A stretch of 64,000 bases of DNA from Tenacibaculum sp. SG-28 (lineage in GTDB: Bacteria; Bacteroidota; Bacteroidia; Flavobacteriales; Flavobacteriaceae), in assembly GCF_002954385.1 (NCBI RefSeq), contig NZ_MQVY01000004.1, positions 1 through 64,000 of the forward strand. Direction: 5' to 3'. Numbering within the stretch: the first letter of the stretch is position 1; each line of letters opens with the position of its first letter. A model generated the notes under the pieces. That model worked only from the letters and a program-made list of their open reading frames with translations, was not told where the DNA came from and ran no database searches. Made by a program: the position numbers and the translations under genes. This document shows positions 237 through 17,928 of this stretch, piece after piece.

Positions 237-298
237 ATTGCCAACACCACCTAAACTGCATTAAAACGCAGCTTAGCCAAAACGTTGTACACAATTAT
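237..298 (+). repeat. attC-like recombination hairpin, site 1 (short class)
   Basis: The left arm carries AAC at 243-245 and the right arm GTT at 284-286. The inner stem pairs CTAAACTGC (251-259) with GCAGCTTAG (268-276), with one mismatch and an 8-nt loop. The 15 bases from 284 to 298 are the exact reverse complement of 2364-2378, the left end of site 2, so they belong to the cassette on the right. The site is about 60 nt, near the minimum size of integron attC sites. Confidence 0.75.
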
Positions 299-2359
299 GA
301 CAAAATCAATCTACATATTACTATCATTACTAATTTCAGGAAATATTTTCTGTCAAAATTCAATAATTAGCGAAAGTGATATTCCAGAACTTGATTCCAT
401 TATAAATTACTTGGAAGTGAATTATAGTCAAAGTGAAACACCTAATTTTTATTCTCTTCCACAAGCATTAGCTACCTATTTTGAAATAATAACAAAAGAA
501 CCAAAAAATTTTCTGTCTGAATTAAAGAAATCAGAGAATATTAAACAATTACAAAATAAATTTAAAGGGTTACAGGTTGACAAAGATTTATTAATTATAA
601 AAAACGCATATTTAAATTATAAAAAGGAAAAGAAACTACAGATAAAGTCATTTGAAATTGGTAAAAGTCAAAGACACATTATTGATAGCCAAAATTATGA
701 GATTGAAATCTTTTCAAATAAAAAACAAAATAGTAGAATATATTTCTCTTCTTACCAAGAAAAATGGAGTAAACATAAAGAGTCAACTATAATAAAAGGT
801 TTCTACTTAAATCAAGAATTCAAATCAGTCGCTATTCCAAAAAAACTTTCAGATTGGATAAACTATACAGACTTAATAGTAAAGCCAGAAACATCTATTT
901 TTTATGATAATGACGACAAGTCAAATGAATTTAAACCATATCAAAGAACTATTATTGACTCATTAGTAAATTACTATGAACTAAAAACCGAAAAACCACC
1001 TTATAGAAAAGAACAAGATTATATAACTCGTAGATACGAATTAAACGAATGGCAATCAAAAAAAGAGAAATTTGCAGACAGCTTTATACCAATGATAGTA
1101 ATTTTAAAAACCTTTTATTAGAAGCTTTAGATTACGCAGAAAAAAACAAAGTCTCAAATGGGGATTTAGAGGATTTTACCGCACAATTAATTTCCAAAAA
1201 AAGAGCTTTGGAATTAATGAGACAAAATAGACAAGTTGGAACTTGTAGTTTTGATAACGGACCAATAGTGCAACAAAAAAGGATTGCTAGTTTGGCTTCC
1301 AAAACTCAAAATTGGAATGTTTTTGTAAAGTCATTCTTAAACATAATGAATGATAATGTTTCTAGAAATGCTAATAGCAATATTGCTTCAAATGCAAGAA
1401 AAACATATATAGAAGAACTTGCGAAACTGGATATAGATATTGATAAAATATTATTGGGTTCTAACATAAGAATTGATGATACAACCCGTACCCACTATTT
1501 TTCAGATGGTAGCAAAATCGCAAAAGCATATGCTAACTTAAATTCTGACAAACAAGAATATTTTGAGAATAAAACTTTCGAAATAATTAAAGATGAAGGA
1601 ATTGATGCTTTTAACAAGCTACATTTTTATAATACACTCAAAAACTATCAATACTTTATAAAAGATAGTATCAAAAAAACAGAGTTGGAAAAAGATATTC
1701 AGAATCTAGTCCCATTCCTTCCAAAAGAATTAAAATCTCGAATTGAAAACCCAAACAAACAACTTTACGATTTGCTTTATCGTGAAAAAAAAGAGCTAGA
1801 TAATTTTGATGTTAAATCATCAATTATAGCACACATTGGCTCTTACAGTTTTGATGGCGATTGCTGGCAAGCTGAACTTATTGACAAAAAATCTGACGGA
1901 AAGATTATTTACGACTTGACAATGGCAATTGGAGAAGAAATAACGCCACTTCAAAATTTTATTGACAAAAAAAGCGAATTGAAATCTCGTGTTGAGGAAC
2001 ATTCATTCTTACAAAAAGTCATCAACGATAATAAAGAAAATAAGGTTTACATAAAATTCACAACCGACAAGTCATTTGTTAATCACAGAAACAGAGTGAC
2101 CGAAGATATGCCAAAGGAATTAGTAGACGAATTAGACTTTGAAAATGCAATTTCTCTATATGTGTCATTTCCGAAAAGAAAATATGTACGCTTTGTTTTA
2201 TTGAATAATCGAAACTTATTGATGTTAGGAATACCTAAAGACTTTGAGTTACCAGGTTATAAATTCGAAGACTTAATGACGAAAGAAGAAAAATCATTTC
2301 TATCAACATCATATAATAGCTTTAAAATATTTGATGAGAATGGAAAAATGTTGAATTAA
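297..2359 (+). pseudogene. Large exported protein of unknown function, split by a one-base frameshift
   Basis: The first frame (ATG 297 to 1121) begins with a hydrophobic signal (MTKSIYILLSLLISGNIFC). The second frame continues it to 2359. Adding one base near 1092, giving CCA AAT in place of CCAAT, joins ...FADSFIP to NDSNFKNLLL and yields a protein of about 687 residues without another stop. The protein is lysine- and asparagine-rich and mostly helical, with a beta-rich C-terminal third. I do not recognise the family. The start codon lies directly against the right arm of site 1, leaving no room for its own promoter downstream of the crossover point. It fills one cassette whose ends match perfectly. 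The lesion is probably an assembly error. Confidence 0.65.
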
Positions 2360-2363
2360 TAAA

Positions 2364-2512
2364 ATAATTGTGTACAACAATGGCTATAAGTAATTGCTTG
2401 GGAGTGGTAAGTGCCAATCGGAATATTCTCCGAATATTCATCACTCTGTGCATTTTTGCTATCTTTAAAACCTTAAGTAACTACTCATAGCCGAACCGTT
2501 GTAGGCAATTTG
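2364..2512 (+). repeat. attC-like recombination hairpin, site 2 (long class)
   Basis: AAC is at 2376-2378 and GTT at 2498-2500. The stem GGCTATAAGTAATTGCTT (2382-2399) pairs with 2474-2491 (AAGTAACTACTCATAGCC) at 14 of 18 positions. The unpaired spacer differs in length between the two arms, as in folded attC sites. The terminal loop region (2400-2473) contains a second small palindrome, GAATATTCTCCGAATATTC. Confidence 0.75.
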
Positions 2513-2541
2513 AGAAACAAAAAAACGTTTAGAAATAAATT

Positions 2542-3396
2542 ATGACAAATAAAATTTCATTTTTCAGTATCTTTTTTTTGGGCTTATTGCTGACATCGTC
2601 TTGCAAAAAAGATGACACACCTGTTGGACCAATTGATACAGGTAACGACCCAAATTTCACCATAGTCGCTCATTCAGACGATGGATTTTCAAGTTTTAAC
2701 CGAAAAGTAGTTGTTTTTGGAATAGATATTTATGCAGTCGCAGCAGTAGAAGATGCCAAACTCTTACACGCTGCTAATGTAATGGCACAGTATCTTGATA
2801 ATGATGAAGACGGAACTGTAGATGACCAATTAGTATTGGATAAAATGCTTGAGAAAAGAGCATTTATCGTAATGTGGAAAAACGAAAACGACCTAAACAA
2901 TATCGAACCACCAAGTGGTAGAGAAGGACAAGATTTAGGAAATGATGAAACACATCCAAACTTTGTTTCCAATGGAAGAACGGGTGAATTTGACGCTTCA
3001 TTGGAAGAGGTACTTCATATCATTAACAATGCAGGACACTCAGCAGCTTACCCAAGTGCCTTTGGACAGAATGTTGGTTCAGATTTAGCAAATGCTATGG
3101 ATATTGCAAGAGGCGGGCAGTTTATGACAATCCCTAATTCTTATCCAGCCAATGCTTGGTATACCTATGACGACCAAACCTGTGACTACGCAAGTTGTCA
3201 AACTATTGAATATTTGTATTGGGCGATAACCTCAATGTTGGGAGCACAGGAAAACAGACTAAATGAAATTGATAATGAATGGAGATTAAACACAAGGCAA
3301 AAAATTGAGGATACAGATACGGCAATATTTTCATTATTAACAAATCCTAATTATAAAATGCCAACTATTTTGCCAGACGGAACTTATAGGCATTAA
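2542..3396 (+). CDS. Lipoprotein with a calcium-loop-like motif, family unknown
   Basis: 284 residues. A signal peptide ends in a lipobox with the modified cysteine at residue 21 (LLLTSSC), so the mature protein should be tethered to a membrane outside the cytoplasm. An acidic loop DNDEDGTVDD near residue 90 resembles an EF-hand-type calcium loop (DxDxDG). A later segment, EEVLHIINNAGH, could supply metal ligands, but no complete HExxH motif is present. Two close cysteines follow (CDYASC). It is the only gene between sites 2 and 3. The cassette ends GTTGTAGGCAATT and the complement of 3401-3414 agree at 12 of 14 positions. Confidence 0.75.
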   Translation: MTNKISFFSIFFLGLLLTSSCKKDDTPVGPIDTGNDPNFTIVAHSDDGFSSFNRKVVVFGIDIYAVAAVEDAKLLHAANVMAQYLDNDEDGTVDDQLVLDKMLEKRAFIVMWKNENDLNNIEPPSGREGQDLGNDETHPNFVSNGRTGEFDASLEEVLHIINNAGHSAAYPSAFGQNVGSDLANAMDIARGGQFMTIPNSYPANAWYTYDDQTCDYASCQTIEYLYWAITSMLGAQENRLNEIDNEWRLNTRQKIEDTDTAIFSLLTNPNYKMPTILPDGTYRH

Positions 3397-3400
3397 AAGA

Positions 3401-3547
3401 AAACTACCTACAACACTGTGTAAAATTAATTGCTATTGCAGATCTTATTACCTAAAATCTTGCCTGCTTTTATATTCGGTTTGCTTTTGCTAAATTCGAT
3501 TCTTAAATCACGCAGCTAACATTACACAAACCGTTGGCGTGCATTTG
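3401..3547 (+). repeat. attC-like recombination hairpin, site 3 (long class)
   Basis: AAC is at 3412-3414 and GTT at 3533-3535. The inner stem pairs TGTGTAAAATTAATTGC with GCAGCTAACATTACACA at 13 of 17 positions. The loop carries the stretch TATATTCGG...CTAAATTCGATT...TTAAA, which recurs in variant form in sites 11, 14 and 18. The bases after GTT (GTTGGCGTGCATTTG) have no matching partner at the end of the next gene, so this cassette's other end is lost or exchanged. Confidence 0.7.
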
Positions 3548-3615
3548 AAAAAAATTATAGATAAATGTAACTTAATACAACATCCTATAGTCCTACTATA
3601 GATTAAACGAATGGA

Positions 3616-4311
3616 ATGAATACAGCACTAACTTCCGAACAAATAAACTATAAAGGATTTCTTTTTGACATTATGCTTTACATAGCTGTAATGTTTTTGA
3701 TAAGGGAAGTTTATTTTTCTCAACTACCTTTTATTGCAAATGGATTAATGTGGTCATTCTCGACTTTGATAATTGCCTTGTGGAGAATGAATGCTCGAAA
3801 TATAACGTGGAAAGGTTTAGGGTTACGAAAACCAGAAAATCTATTAATAACCTCATTGGTAACTATTGGAATATTAATAGCTATTCCAATATTAATTATT
3901 GTTTTTCAGCAGATTCAAAACTTATTACCTATCAATTTATCGCCAGATACTTCCTCGCAAGATGCAGTTTCTAAATTTGGAGATTTAAAGGAAAATTGGA
4001 TTCACTTTTTTACAATTATTCCATTTATATTGCTTCAATCGGCATTAGAAGAACTGTTAGATAGAGGCTTTTTAATCAATTGGTTTGAACGATTATTTTC
4101 TAAAACCTCGTTTGCTACTTCTATTGCCGTTCTTTTGCAAGCAATTATTTTTGGATTTAGACACTCTTACGATATATCAGAAAGGTCAATTACAGTAGGA
4201 ATTATAGGTTTAGTAATGGGAATAGCATATGTGAAATTTGGAAGGAATTTATGGCCTTTAATTATTGCACATTGTATACTTAATACTATGTCTATGGTTG
4301 GGAAAGTATAA
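3616..4311 (+). CDS. CPBP family intramembrane metalloprotease (CAAX/Abi type)
   Basis: 231 residues with about seven hydrophobic segments. The family's three motifs are present: EExxxR (E145, E146, R150, in EELLDRGF), FxxxH (F179, H183) and HxxxN (H219, N223). These place two glutamates and two histidines in the membrane, as in Rce1-type proteases. Known members process CAAX proteins in eukaryotes. Bacterial members are often linked to bacteriocin immunity or signalling, but the substrate here is unknown. ATG 3616 lies 83 nt after the GTT of site 3. No hairpin separates it clearly from the next gene, so the two may share a cassette or an intervening site has been lost. Confidence 0.9.
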   Translation: MNTALTSEQINYKGFLFDIMLYIAVMFLIREVYFSQLPFIANGLMWSFSTLIIALWRMNARNITWKGLGLRKPENLLITSLVTIGILIAIPILIIVFQQIQNLLPINLSPDTSSQDAVSKFGDLKENWIHFFTIIPFILLQSALEELLDRGFLINWFERLFSKTSFATSIAVLLQAIIFGFRHSYDISERSITVGIIGLVMGIAYVKFGRNLWPLIIAHCILNTMSMVGKV

Positions 4312-4446
4312 TTAAATAAAAAACTAACTTAAGATGTATAACCGCAATTACGGCGGATTCGACAGACTATAAAACACCAAATATGGTATACAAATTAACA
4401 GCCTAAATCAATTTTTAACCTGTAGCCATATTTCAGGACTAGACAT

Positions 4447-5022
4447 TTGAAAAAAAGCATAGAGCATATAAAACACATTAGGAATAACAGCAAAGACTGT
4501 TCATTCTATATCTGCAATATATTTAGAATTGAAAACGGAAAAATTGAATTTAATGATATATTTAAATTTGACTTACTTAATGAGAAATACTTCAATACTG
4601 AAAAAAAATTAAAAGAAATGGGAGAAAGTTGGAAATCTTTTATCCAAAATGAAAGAAAAGAAACTGAACCTAAATCTGAAATAATTGAATCTTATGGTCC
4701 AATTATTAAATCTAAAATAAATTCAAATGATTTTGAAAAATTAAATTATGAAGAATATGAATTGAAAATGAAATCTATATTTCAAAGTTGGCGGAAATCC
4801 GGAGACGGATTTGAAGATGAATTGGAAAAATTTCACGTTAAATCAATTAACGATTTACAAAATTTCAACCTTGAAAAACGAGATTACTATTTTTTGAATT
4901 ATATGTTAATTCATGATAACAAAAAACATGAATTGAATTTTATATATTCATATTTTTTTAAAGTTATTGGAATAGACTATGAATCAAACACTTTTATTAA
5001 ATTGAATTATGGAAATGAGTAA
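4447..5022 (+). CDS. Hypothetical cytoplasmic protein
   Basis: 191 residues with no signal peptide or membrane segment. It is strongly charged (K, E, N rich) and probably alpha-helical with some beta segments near the N-terminus. The start is taken as TTG 4447, because no in-frame ATG precedes the body of the protein. I do not recognise the family. The gap from the CPBP gene (4312-4446) contains a short palindrome, CCGCAATTACGG, but no full cassette hairpin. The stop codon touches the left arm of site 4. Confidence 0.6.
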   Translation: MKKSIEHIKHIRNNSKDCSFYICNIFRIENGKIEFNDIFKFDLLNEKYFNTEKKLKEMGESWKSFIQNERKETEPKSEIIESYGPIIKSKINSNDFEKLNYEEYELKMKSIFQSWRKSGDGFEDELEKFHVKSINDLQNFNLEKRDYYFLNYMLIHDNKKHELNFIYSYFFKVIGIDYESNTFIKLNYGNE

Positions 5023-5172
5023 AAACTACTGGCAACACCGTATAAACTTTATTGCTGGTATTAGCTCACTTAGGAAATTCCTCCGTAAATTCACCGTTAG
5101 TGTTTTATTTACTAAATTATTTGCTTAAACAAACCAACAAAGCTTATACACAAAACGTTGGCATTCATAGCT
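5022..5172 (+). repeat. attC-like recombination hairpin, site 4 (long class)
   Basis: AAC is at 5034-5036 and GTT at 5157-5159. The stem GTATAAACTTTATTG pairs with CAACAAAGCTTATAC, with two G:T-type mismatches. Site 5 is a close relative with the same arms and a very similar loop (GGGAAATTCC-like palindrome, CACCGTT.GTGTTTTATTTA.TAA), so the two sites share recent ancestry. Confidence 0.75.
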
Positions 5173-5215
5173 CACTCAAACTCTGAAAGTGAAAAATGGA
5201 AAATAAAAAAATAAT

Positions 5216-5479
5216 ATGTTGAAAAAAGGATTAGGAATTATTTTTTTAATAACAGCGTTCTATTTAGGAACATATTCTCTTTATAAACTTTTCATCAATC
5301 CACATTTATGGTTAACAATTAAAAAACTTTTTAGCGGATATTTTGGAACATATACTATAGTTTTGATAGTGTTTAACGGAGGATATTTTTATATAATTTT
5401 CTTATTATTCAAATACGGTCTTAAATGGTCAAATTTATTACAAACACTTAAATTAGAAAAAAAACGAATTATATATTGA
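5216..5479 (+). CDS. Small two-helix membrane protein
   Basis: 87 residues from ATG 5216. There are two hydrophobic segments (about residues 5-28 and 45-68) with a basic C-terminus (KLEKKRIIY), so both ends are probably cytoplasmic. I do not recognise the family. It is the only gene in a small cassette whose ends match as GTTGGCATT (5157) and AATGCCAAC (5707-5715). Confidence 0.6.
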   Translation: MLKKGLGIIFLITAFYLGTYSLYKLFINPHLWLTIKKLFSGYFGTYTIVLIVFNGGYFYIIFLLFKYGLKWSNLLQTLKLEKKRIIY

Positions 5480-5700
5480 ATTTAATTTACTCCAAAATTA
5501 CTGACTTAATCTGAATTTAAAATATGTGAATATAGTAAAACTCTGAATTTAAAAAGTTTGCGGAATTGAGCAAAATGTGAAAAATCTGAATTGCGGAATT
5601 TACTCAAGCTCTGAATTAAATTCTTGGCTGATTAATCACTCAAAAACTGAATTTTAAAAAAATGGAAAGAAAATAAAACGGAATTATAAACTGGAAAAAA
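5480..5700 (+). repeat. AT-rich tail with dispersed TCTGAATT copies
   Basis: The non-coding tail of the cassette between the small membrane gene and site 5 holds four exact TCTGAATT words (5510, 5542, 5585 and 5610) and one ACTGAATT (5645), with repeated GCGGAATT nearby. Spacing is irregular at 25-43 nt. No open frame is supported. It may be decayed coding sequence or a degenerate repeat; no function is evident. Confidence 0.4.
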
Positions 5701-5851
5701 CTACGAAATGCCAACACCGTATAAACTTTATTGCTAGTTATAGTTCGCTTGGGAAATTCCTTCGGAATTTCACCGTTCGTGTTTTATTTAGTAAGTTCAA
5801 TGTTTAAATAACGCAACAAAGCTTTTACAACAACGTTGGCATTCATTAAAG
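5701..5851 (+). repeat. attC-like recombination hairpin, site 5 (long class)
   Basis: AAC is at 5713-5715 and GTT at 5835-5837. The outer arms ATGCCAAC and GTTGGCAT are perfectly complementary. The inner stem is GTATAAACTTTATTGC against GCAACAAAGCTTTTAC. The right-arm bases GTTGGCATT match the left end of site 6 (AATGCCAAC at 6490-6498), delimiting the next cassette. Confidence 0.8.
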
Positions 5852-7448: not shown

Positions 7449-7592
7449 GATGCACTGAGTACAACACCATATAAATTTTTTTTATTAGCGTAAAATTTAC
7501 TAAAATCTTCAGGCCTTTTCTATTTGGTCCTTATTTATTACATGAAATTTGTAAAGCAAACAACTAATATTACGCAAACTGTAGCGCAATTT
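7449..7592 (+). repeat. attC-like recombination hairpin, site 7 (long class, variant right triplet)
   Basis: The left AAC is at 7463-7465. The right arm reads CTGTAGCGCAATTT, with GTA (7581-7583) where other sites have GTT. The other end of this cassette (site 8) has TAC where other sites have AAC, so the two ends change together. The stem pairs ATATAAATT...TTAGCG with the AACTAATATTACGC region. Confidence 0.65.
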
Positions 7593-10030: not shown

Positions 10031-10175
10031 AAATTGCATACCAAATCTTACATAATTTATGGTTTTTACTTGCCTACTTAAGAGAGTTCTCTCGTATTTT
10101 TTATTCAATTTATTTTTTCTAAATTAGATTGGTAAACCGCGCAGGAAAGTATAGATAAACCGTTATGCAACGTTT
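10031..10175 (+). repeat. attC-like recombination hairpin, site 9 (long class)
   Basis: The left end TTGCATACC (10034-10042) pairs with GTTATGCAA (10162-10170), with one mismatch. The inner left segment ACCAAATCTTACATAA pairs partly with GTATAGATAAACC. A 100-nt loop contains TTCTAAATTAGATTGG, similar to the loops of sites 3 and 11, and a palindrome AGAGAGTTCTCTC. Confidence 0.6.
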
Positions 10176-12343: not shown

Positions 12344-12503
12344 TATAACGCTTTTAAAAAATTCTTTTAGAAAACCGTTTAAAAATTGCTAATGTAAAGT
12401 TTATGAACTAAAATTTGCCTTCTTTTTTGCTTGGTTTCTATTTTCTAAATTCGACTTTAAAATTAAGCAACCAATCTTGCACAAAACTATTAGATGTAAT
12501 TTG
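12341..12503 (+). repeat. Degenerate attC-like hairpin, site 11 (long class)
   Basis: TTGCTAAT (12387-12394) pairs with ATTAAGCAA (12462-12470) with one bulge. The loop holds the recurring stretch CCTTCTTTTTTGCTTGG...CTAAATTCGACTTTAAA, as in site 3. The right arm is GCACAAAACTATTAGATG. The arm triplets have drifted from AAC/GTT. Confidence 0.5.
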
Positions 12504-17774: not shown

Positions 17775-17928
17775 GACTGGCTTCGTAATATAAAGGTATA
17801 TTTACGTTCTTGCCAAATTCTAAAAATACTTGCTGATTTTTGATTTAATGTATACAAGTTAAGTCAAGCGCTAACCCATGTAATTATTCATATTCGAGGC
17901 CATTTTAAATAATTAAAATTATAAATAA

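Follow-up and report, generated by a model that had tools for sequence, protein, structure and literature searches.

A gene cassette near the start of contig 4 of Tenacibaculum sp. SG-28 has two ends that are perfectly complementary over 15 bases. The stretch of DNA analysed here (the window) is the first 64,000 nucleotides of that contig. We consider it very probable, from comparison with other genomes, that the matching bases mark the ends of a single mobile cassette, which belongs to an integron-like array in the chromosome. Since the recombinase linked to such arrays is Xer-like and lacks the insert typical of the integron integrase IntI, the system would be of integron type but run by a different enzyme. 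The features that carry this reading emerge from the sequences themselves: a rule for cassette ends, hairpin sites, mobility of units, linkage of the arrays to a recombinase, and absence of the IntI insert from that recombinase.

As the initial annotation had claimed, bases 284-298 (GTTGTACACAATTAT) read in reverse complement are identical to bases 2364-2378; the match extends no further on either side. Neither of the two 15-mers has a second copy in the window. By itself, an inverted match of 15 bases within 3 kb is nothing unusual in such AT-rich DNA; the window holds six records of inverted pairs of this kind, or about four distinct pairs when overlapping 15-mers are counted once. It is the location of the match and not its length that rules out chance, because both arms abut the recombination core of attC-like hairpins and the same pairing recurs in other cassettes. 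GTTG at 284-287 closes one attC-like site and CAAC at 2375-2378 opens the next. The cassette and its two sites are laid out as follows (E values refer to the covariance model R1, described below; ORF, open reading frame):

242..287, + strand: attC-like site S1, short form, 46 nt, ending with the core GTTG at 284-287; R1 E 0.0024; hairpin with R and L arms, z -3.0.
284..298, + strand: first 15 bases of the cassette, consisting of a 10-base arm, A294 (position 11) and TTAT; reverse complement of 2364-2378.
284..2497, + strand: cassette 1; expected crossover between G284 and T285.
297..1121, + strand: first part of the cassette gene; the listed ORF begins with TTG at 285 and its frame differs from that of the second part; no Pfam match.
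1049..2359, + strand: second part of the cassette gene, 436 aa; homologues 90-91% identical.
2364..2378, + strand: cassette end up to the inverse core CAAC; T2368 pairs with A294 and is C in both close homologues.
2375..2501, + strand: attC-like site S2, recognised by R1 (E 1.2e-12; the site is in the training set) and by its fold.

A short attC nearly identical to S1 is present in another genome (L028).

A search of 298 other family genomes gave homologues of the cassette gene in 3, two of them close (G193 and G119). The cassette is present as a unit in both, with 85% identity over window positions 274-2501 in G193 and 89% over 274-2382 in G119. The upstream sequence differs from that of the window in both genomes, and the next cassette also differs in G193. 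Both copies begin with the same bases, and both have C at the position of T2368, so that their ends match over 10 bases, a mismatch and 4 bases (14/15). The initial annotation had named homologues with mismatching ends as the observation that would speak against its proposal, that the cassette ends pair as one attC arm in the excised form; the two close homologues instead keep the pair in different surroundings, which supports the proposal, with the excised circle as its presumed intermediate. A further cassette (L071), without similarity to that of the window in a comparison of units, has the same ends, again with the mismatch. The simplest reading of these sequences is that the perfect 15 bases of the window are the usual 10 + 1 + 4 arrangement, from which the mismatch was removed by a single C-to-T change at 2368.

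The rule behind this arrangement was derived by comparing the start of each cassette with the reverse complement of its own end, in 116 pairs of consecutive sites from 30 of the 41 stretches with sites. The sites came from 126 R1 matches outside the window, from which those of L106 and L059 (minus strand), L126 (cut at the locus end) and L064 (upstream, E 0.11) were dropped, and from 47 own-genome matches, from which the 8 in the window and 2 weak ones were omitted, with 5 window sites entered by hand. Five pairs without GTT/AAC ends were excluded, leaving 111 cassettes. In most of these, the cassette starts with GTTRNNNNNN, its end is the reverse complement of that start, and an attC-like hairpin comes next. 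The match is 10 bases long in 57 cassettes, 9 in 27, 15 in 1 (the window cassette) and 8 or fewer in 26. A match of at least 9 bases to the cassette's own end is thus found in 85/111 cassettes, compared with 1.1% of 11,672 mismatched start/end pairs from different arrays, and at positions 5-9 the identity is 0.85-0.90 for own pairs vs 0.28-0.37 for other pairs. At position 11, in contrast, start and reversed end agree in only 4% of own pairs. Of the 57 cassettes with a 10-base match, 54 have A here in the start and G in the reversed end, which corresponds to an A/C mismatch. Beyond it the match resumes, with own-pair values of 0.77, 0.83 and 0.70 at positions 12-14 vs 0.61, 0.51 and 0.39 in the control. 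In the 9-base cases the interruption is longer in most, and the end often has one extra base.

The same rule is evident in a one-contig genome (G040), where the recombinase is immediately followed by 68 kb with at least 82 attC sites, all pointing the same way (G040:C1:3128000-3199999, L273-L276), in a layout comparable to that of a superintegron. The longest ORF lies on the attC strand in 77 of the 81 units, so that genes and sites form an array of one orientation. The cassette matches its own end for 9-10 bases in 73/81 cases and at position 11 in 0/81; identity at positions 5-9 is 0.94-0.99 for own pairs vs 0.26-0.41 for others, and positions 12-14 give 0.93, 0.93 and 0.65 vs 0.70, 0.58 and 0.48 in the control. 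These are mostly fresh data, though not fully independent, as two of the sites (L034) served to train R1 and the first two cassettes were among the first 10-base matches noticed.

These comparisons alter two claims of the initial annotation. It had taken the length of the match to set this cassette apart; the window cassette is indeed the sole one of the 116 pairs to match over more than 10 bases, but 9-10 bases, a conserved mismatch and about three more matching bases are the rule of the family. The idea that the 15-base pair is unique in kind was rejected, 10 bases, a mismatch and 4 bases being common in other cassettes. The annotation had also given 6-7 bases as the usual extent shared by cassette ends, which is an understatement for the same phylum. 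An energy scan of 8 of the 12 IntI loci fetched from Bacteroidota yielded 20 consecutive pairs, of which 9 match over 9-13 bases (one of them a repeated unit); the other 11 were taken to be wrong sites, and an earlier, stricter scan had given pairs at 1 locus only. A long end match is therefore not in itself new. At these IntI loci, the mismatch pattern of the window type was absent by eye.

The attC-like sites are imperfect hairpins of the form R''/L''..L'/R' with YAAC and GTTR cores, as in integron attC sites. They were located with R1, a covariance model built, after simple hairpin scans had proved too strict or too noisy, from 23 sites picked by hand; the window supplied 4 of these and other genomes of its family 19. 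In the model's stem, 94.1% of cells are paired, and covariation is 0.427 vs 0.045-0.084 when the stem is slid; among 500 shuffles, none reaches four of the five stem measures and 33 reach the fifth (number of pair types). Over 245 kb that comprised IntI loci and own-genome stretches outside the arrays, R1 gave only two matches, both at chance level (E 0.11 and 0.81), and none at the 12 IntI loci fell below E 0.1. The own genome has 47 matches at E<=10, mostly clustered and several at contig ends. A search of the window against Rfam returned no family at gathering scores.

That the cassettes move as units is supported by sequence evidence of three sorts: homologous cassettes in other surroundings, units that are shared or duplicated, and a resistance gene, tet(X), with differing neighbours (see below). 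In a comparison of 107 units, three more were common to the own genome and L126 or L068, with 83-93% identity; two of these align from base 1 of both copies, and the alignment of the third starts at base 1 in the L126 unit but not in its counterpart. A unit of 761 bases is duplicated exactly within L126.

The own genome encodes two tyrosine recombinases, 92% identical to each other, each directly before an attI-like stretch with an array further along the same strand. The DNA past the two stop codons is alike up to AATAGTT and then diverges, as expected for an attI followed by different cassettes. Relatives of these proteins are present in 122/199 family genomes, and at least 579 stretches in a scan of named genomes encode one; 80 of the latter were kept, across Bacteroidota and a few other phyla by record title. 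A site lies downstream of the recombinase in 32/80 of these named loci, and 120/122 kept sites are downstream on its strand, the remaining 2 being upstream. A site within 3 kb is present at 27 named loci, and in 22 of these the first cassette's match to its own end begins no more than 150 bases from the recombinase stop codon, which places a putative attI beside the recombinase with insertion at G^TT. An inverted repeat ends 3-6 bases before the presumed crossover point in 13/22 loci. Across 45 family genomes, attC sites (E<=1e-8) occur in 37/38 with the recombinase and in 3/7 without it.

The layout varies to some extent: attC matches are found upstream of the recombinase in L119 and L064, and on the other strand in L106 (8094-8218). 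A plasmid-borne example is a Chryseobacterium plasmid (NZ_CP041688.1, L252), with a recombinase annotated 'site-specific tyrosine recombinase/integron integrase' and three downstream attC matches (E 2.6e-7, 2.4e-4 and 0.011).

The recombinase family lacks the additional domain specific to IntI. The spacing from the R box to the HxxR motif is 83-96 residues in 98/98 members (median 91), compared with 133 in 10/10 IntI proteins of the phylum, and all five members tested with the IntI model TIGR02249 scored below its cut-off. The solved IntI4 structure (2a3v) aligns to the family in two blocks, with a gap where IntI has extra residues, while XerA-type proteins align through. A predicted structure of the recombinase (mean pLDDT, a per-residue confidence score, 88) has 2a3v and XerA as its best fold matches. 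In a quick tree, which took in 14 of the 80 viral rows, 10 of the phylum's IntI matches and a single Xer as outgroup, the IntI proteins group in a single clade (support 100), separate from that of the new family (98); the root is that one Xer, on a long branch. Two of five members tested passed the cut-off of NCBIfam NF040815, named 'site-specific tyrosine recombinase/integron integrase'; the label points the same way as an integron reading, though a label is no test. The additional domain has been used as the criterion for IntI (PMC2426708), and the insertion has been called essential for integron function, while not being fully conserved in the subgroup treated there (PMC8138268).

The alternative that survives best is an ordinary IntI integron, or a cluster of attC sites lacking integron integrases (CALIN), whose cassettes are moved in trans by an IntI encoded elsewhere, the adjoining recombinase being a bystander. 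True IntI proteins (over the TIGR02249 cut-off) are indeed present in 84/296 genomes of the phylum, which fits the naming of Bacteroidota among integron phyla in the literature (PMC9668308, PMC8618304), and published phage attC sites, including one of two tested from Polaribacter phage P12002L, recombine with IntI1 (PMC9892861). The IntegronFinder 2.0 paper (PMC9024848) gives one complete integron in Bacteroidetes proper, that of Salinibacter ruber, besides Chlorobi and Ignavibacteriae. However, the own genome has no IntI over the cut-off, and only one of the 85 phylum genomes listed with a match belongs to the window's class. In addition, many genomes have the non-IntI recombinase directly beside attI and array, its presence is associated with that of attC, and R1 fails to recover sites at the IntI loci. 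We regard an IntI acting in trans as unlikely.

Other alternatives concern the 15-base match itself. The perfect pair could be functional in its own right, marking a special cassette with stronger pairing, and one other mismatch-free cassette does exist, with a 14-base match on a phage-labelled contig (L192). This is nevertheless very improbable, as both close homologues carry the mismatch, none of the 81 G040 cassettes is without it, and the gene of the window cassette is split across two overlapping frames, while in the homologues a single frame (687 and 703 aa) stays open throughout. The split (window 297-2359) is either a sequencing error or the mark of a pseudogene, and the window cassette is probably decaying. 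A transposon-like unit with 15-bp terminal inverted repeats, inserted as a block, would account for two perfect inverted ends 2.07 kb apart, but we give this hardly any weight and rejected it: no transposase was found in the unit among its ORFs or by Pfam, end sequences differ from cassette to cassette, no family of elements with the same 15-base ends was seen, both ends abut attC hairpins, and the homologues keep 14/15 bases in other surroundings. Finally, that the hairpins are terminators or repeat elements and the match a by-product of chance or composition is just as improbable, for although the DNA is AT-rich and the window has other 15-base inverted pairs, the stem shows compensatory changes, and the excess of own pairs at positions 5-9 in the 111 cassettes was found again in the G040 array.

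Several observations weigh against a recombinase-run cassette system. R1 was trained on sites of the window's family, four of them from this window. Of the 116 consecutive-site pairs, 27 match over fewer than 8 bases, and these were read as missed or decayed sites. At 11 of the 80 named loci R1 gave no match within 6 kb, with a downstream flank longer than 2.5 kb, and at 38 the flank is too short to tell. The Fisher test of the association in the 45 family genomes (p 0.001) ignores relatedness; one of these genomes (G008) has the recombinase but no attC at E<=1e-8, and three (G019, G037 and G041) have attC but no recombinase at E<=1e-50. One of the five genomes with a tet(X) cassette (G739) likewise has no family recombinase at E<=1e-30.

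If the cassettes are moved by the Xer-like recombinase, as we prefer to think, a mechanism can be proposed. The recombinase would cut and join at G^TT and excise the cassette as a circle. Circle formation would bring the two matching ends together as one arm of a folded attC, and the excised cassette would then be inserted at attI or at another attC. The near-constant mismatch suggests that position 11 may matter in these reactions.

Within the window, good attC-like sites are confined to the first 6 kb, and weaker, decayed ones extend as far as 17.9 kb. The features beyond S2 are:

2498..3532, + strand: cassette 2; ORF 2542-3396, 284 aa, no Pfam match; ends match over 8 bases.
3411..3536, + strand: attC-like site S3; R1 E 2.7e-18 (training set).
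3533..5156, + strand: one or two cassettes, the intervening site probably lost; ORFs 3616-4311 (CAAX-type protease) and 4447-5022; ends match over only 4 bases.
5033..5160, + strand: attC-like site S5; R1 E 4.6e-16 (training set); similar copies elsewhere in the genome.
5157..5834, + strand: cassette; ORF 5216-5479; ends match over 9 bases.
5712..5838, + strand: attC-like site S6; R1 E 5.6e-17 (training set).
7462..7584, + strand: decayed attC-like site, weak; R1 E 0.24.
10042..10165, + strand: decayed attC-like site; R1 E 4.8e-4.
12370..12492, + strand: decayed attC-like site; R1 E 0.01.
17797..17892, + strand: possible decayed attC-like site; R1 E 0.048, partial match.

No recombinase of the array-linked family was found within the window. 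In the own genome (G000), the pieces of array on contigs C1, C2, C3, C4 and C8 lie at contig ends or, in the case of C8, fill the contig, which probably means that the assembly has cut through one or more longer arrays.

Arrays of the same kind are present on contigs labelled viral. In 80 such contigs from IMG/VR (L136-L215, some of them near-duplicates) there are 259 R1 matches, all on the strand opposite to the recombinase; the contigs had been considered as a negative control and were dropped from that role since they hold arrays themselves. Ends were compared in 28 of them, mostly with at least three matches, with near-duplicates left out, some eligible contigs omitted and pairs more than 1.5 kb apart dropped. 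Here 97/150 pairs match over at least 9 bases with the same mismatch, and some ends match over more than 20 bases around one interruption. The latter is also seen at L084 (12589-13044), and the contigs concerned include L159, L164, L142 and L169; such extended matches might bear on how cassettes first arise. The layout is a mirror image of the bacterial one, and the units are short (median about 400 bp); many ORFs seem, by eye, to run against the attC direction. Among ORFs chosen for inspection, some array contigs encode a phage-type DNA polymerase B, DnaB helicase, thymidylate synthase, RNA ligase and homing endonucleases. In records of isolated phages, no recombinase relative above 46% identity was found among the 40 of 58 matches listed. 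The phage integrons and CALINs of PMC9892861 resemble these contigs in having attC sites in phages, including a Polaribacter phage; as far as that account goes, the contigs differ in having a non-IntI recombinase beside the arrays and, on some, phage replication genes.

A connection to antibiotic resistance is provided by tet(X). Genes of the tet(X) type are present in 15 of 395 genomes of the order, 5 at 86-87% identity and 10 at 60-63%. In the five at 86-87% (L253-L257), tet(X) is a complete cassette, with the start GTTATGTGCCATTTTTGA and the end AAAACGGCACATAAC matching over 10 bases, a mismatch and 4 bases; upstream of it stands one of three different attC sites, and the downstream neighbour is a different one in each of the five. 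The cassette's own attC gave no R1 match at E<=1 and was recognised by eye. In five fetched loci (L258-L262) from the ten genomes at 60-63%, R1 had no match. A family recombinase lies 1.5-3.8 kb from tet(X), pointing away from it, in four of the five cassette genomes (G708, G786, G867 and G920). This divergent layout is unlike that of the window genome, and both layouts thus occur in bacteria.

On an Acinetobacter baylyi plasmid and on pHH1107 (NZ_CP104735.1 and FJ012881.1; L250 and L251), tet(X3) follows a shorter recombinase relative, which aligns to 62% of the query with 52.5% identity. The recombinase and the gene are separated by an inverted repeat, then four bases, then GTTATGTGCCATTTTTGA, and R1 found no attC on the tet(X3) strand of either plasmid. 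Judged by these sequences, tet(X3) on both plasmids occupies an attI-like site that immediately follows a shortened family recombinase. The xerD-tet(X3) arrangement is described in PMC7494873, in whose main text the words integron and cassette are absent. A further case may be that of Riemerella, which is reported to integrate aph(3')-IVb as a unit, together with 27 bp before and 140 bp after the gene, independently of homology; the 140-bp 3' flank folds like an attC, and the mechanism is there given as unknown (PMC13148043).

Taking these observations together, we think it likely, on the strength of sequence comparison, that there is a second class of integron, in which a Xer-like recombinase without the IntI insert runs attC/attI arrays in Bacteroidota and large phages and recognises an arm of 10 bases that is specific to each cassette, with a fixed mismatch at position 11. 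Such a class would explain the homology-free capture of genes in Riemerella, and would be the source of the tet(X) that entered Acinetobacter plasmids. A literature search covering titles and the beginnings of abstracts, with subscription journals and preprints outside its scope, found no paper on integrons run by a non-IntI recombinase in Bacteroidota.

The proposed class shares much with sedentary chromosomal integrons (VchIntIA/IntI4, PDB 2a3v): an attI beside a tyrosine recombinase, arrays of mostly single-gene cassettes, attC hairpins with YAAC..GTTR cores, and a cassette start that matches the cassette's own end. It differs from IntI integrons in that the recombinase is without the insert, array and recombinase lie on one strand in the named bacterial loci, an inverted repeat precedes the attI crossover (in the 13 of 22 loci noted above), further matches follow the mismatch at position 11, and R1 misses attC sites of the IntI type. 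The window resembles a CALIN in having attC sites and no array-linked recombinase found beside them; it is unlike one in that the genome carries two such recombinases. A tool requiring IntI would presumably call these arrays CALIN or nothing. Xer and XerA proteins (NF040815, PDB 5hxy and 4a8e) have the same length, fold and catalytic boxes as the array-linked family, which differs from them in its linkage to attC arrays.

Finally, we note what these properties may mean for integrons in this family and beyond. Sites of the attC type are present in 40 of the 45 genomes of the window's family, with at least 82 in one of them, and most of these genomes carry a recombinase that IntI-based rules exclude. 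If that recombinase is the agent, recombination of folded attC sites needs no IntI insert, even though the insert has been called essential, and the origin of integrons could be tested by comparing two classes of enzyme that act on one kind of site. The system provides a concrete way in which Riemerella could take up resistance genes without homology, as has been reported (PMC13148043), and would place tet(X), a mobile tigecycline-resistance gene, among its cassettes. The arrays beside such recombinases on contigs with large-phage genes would extend the system to viruses.
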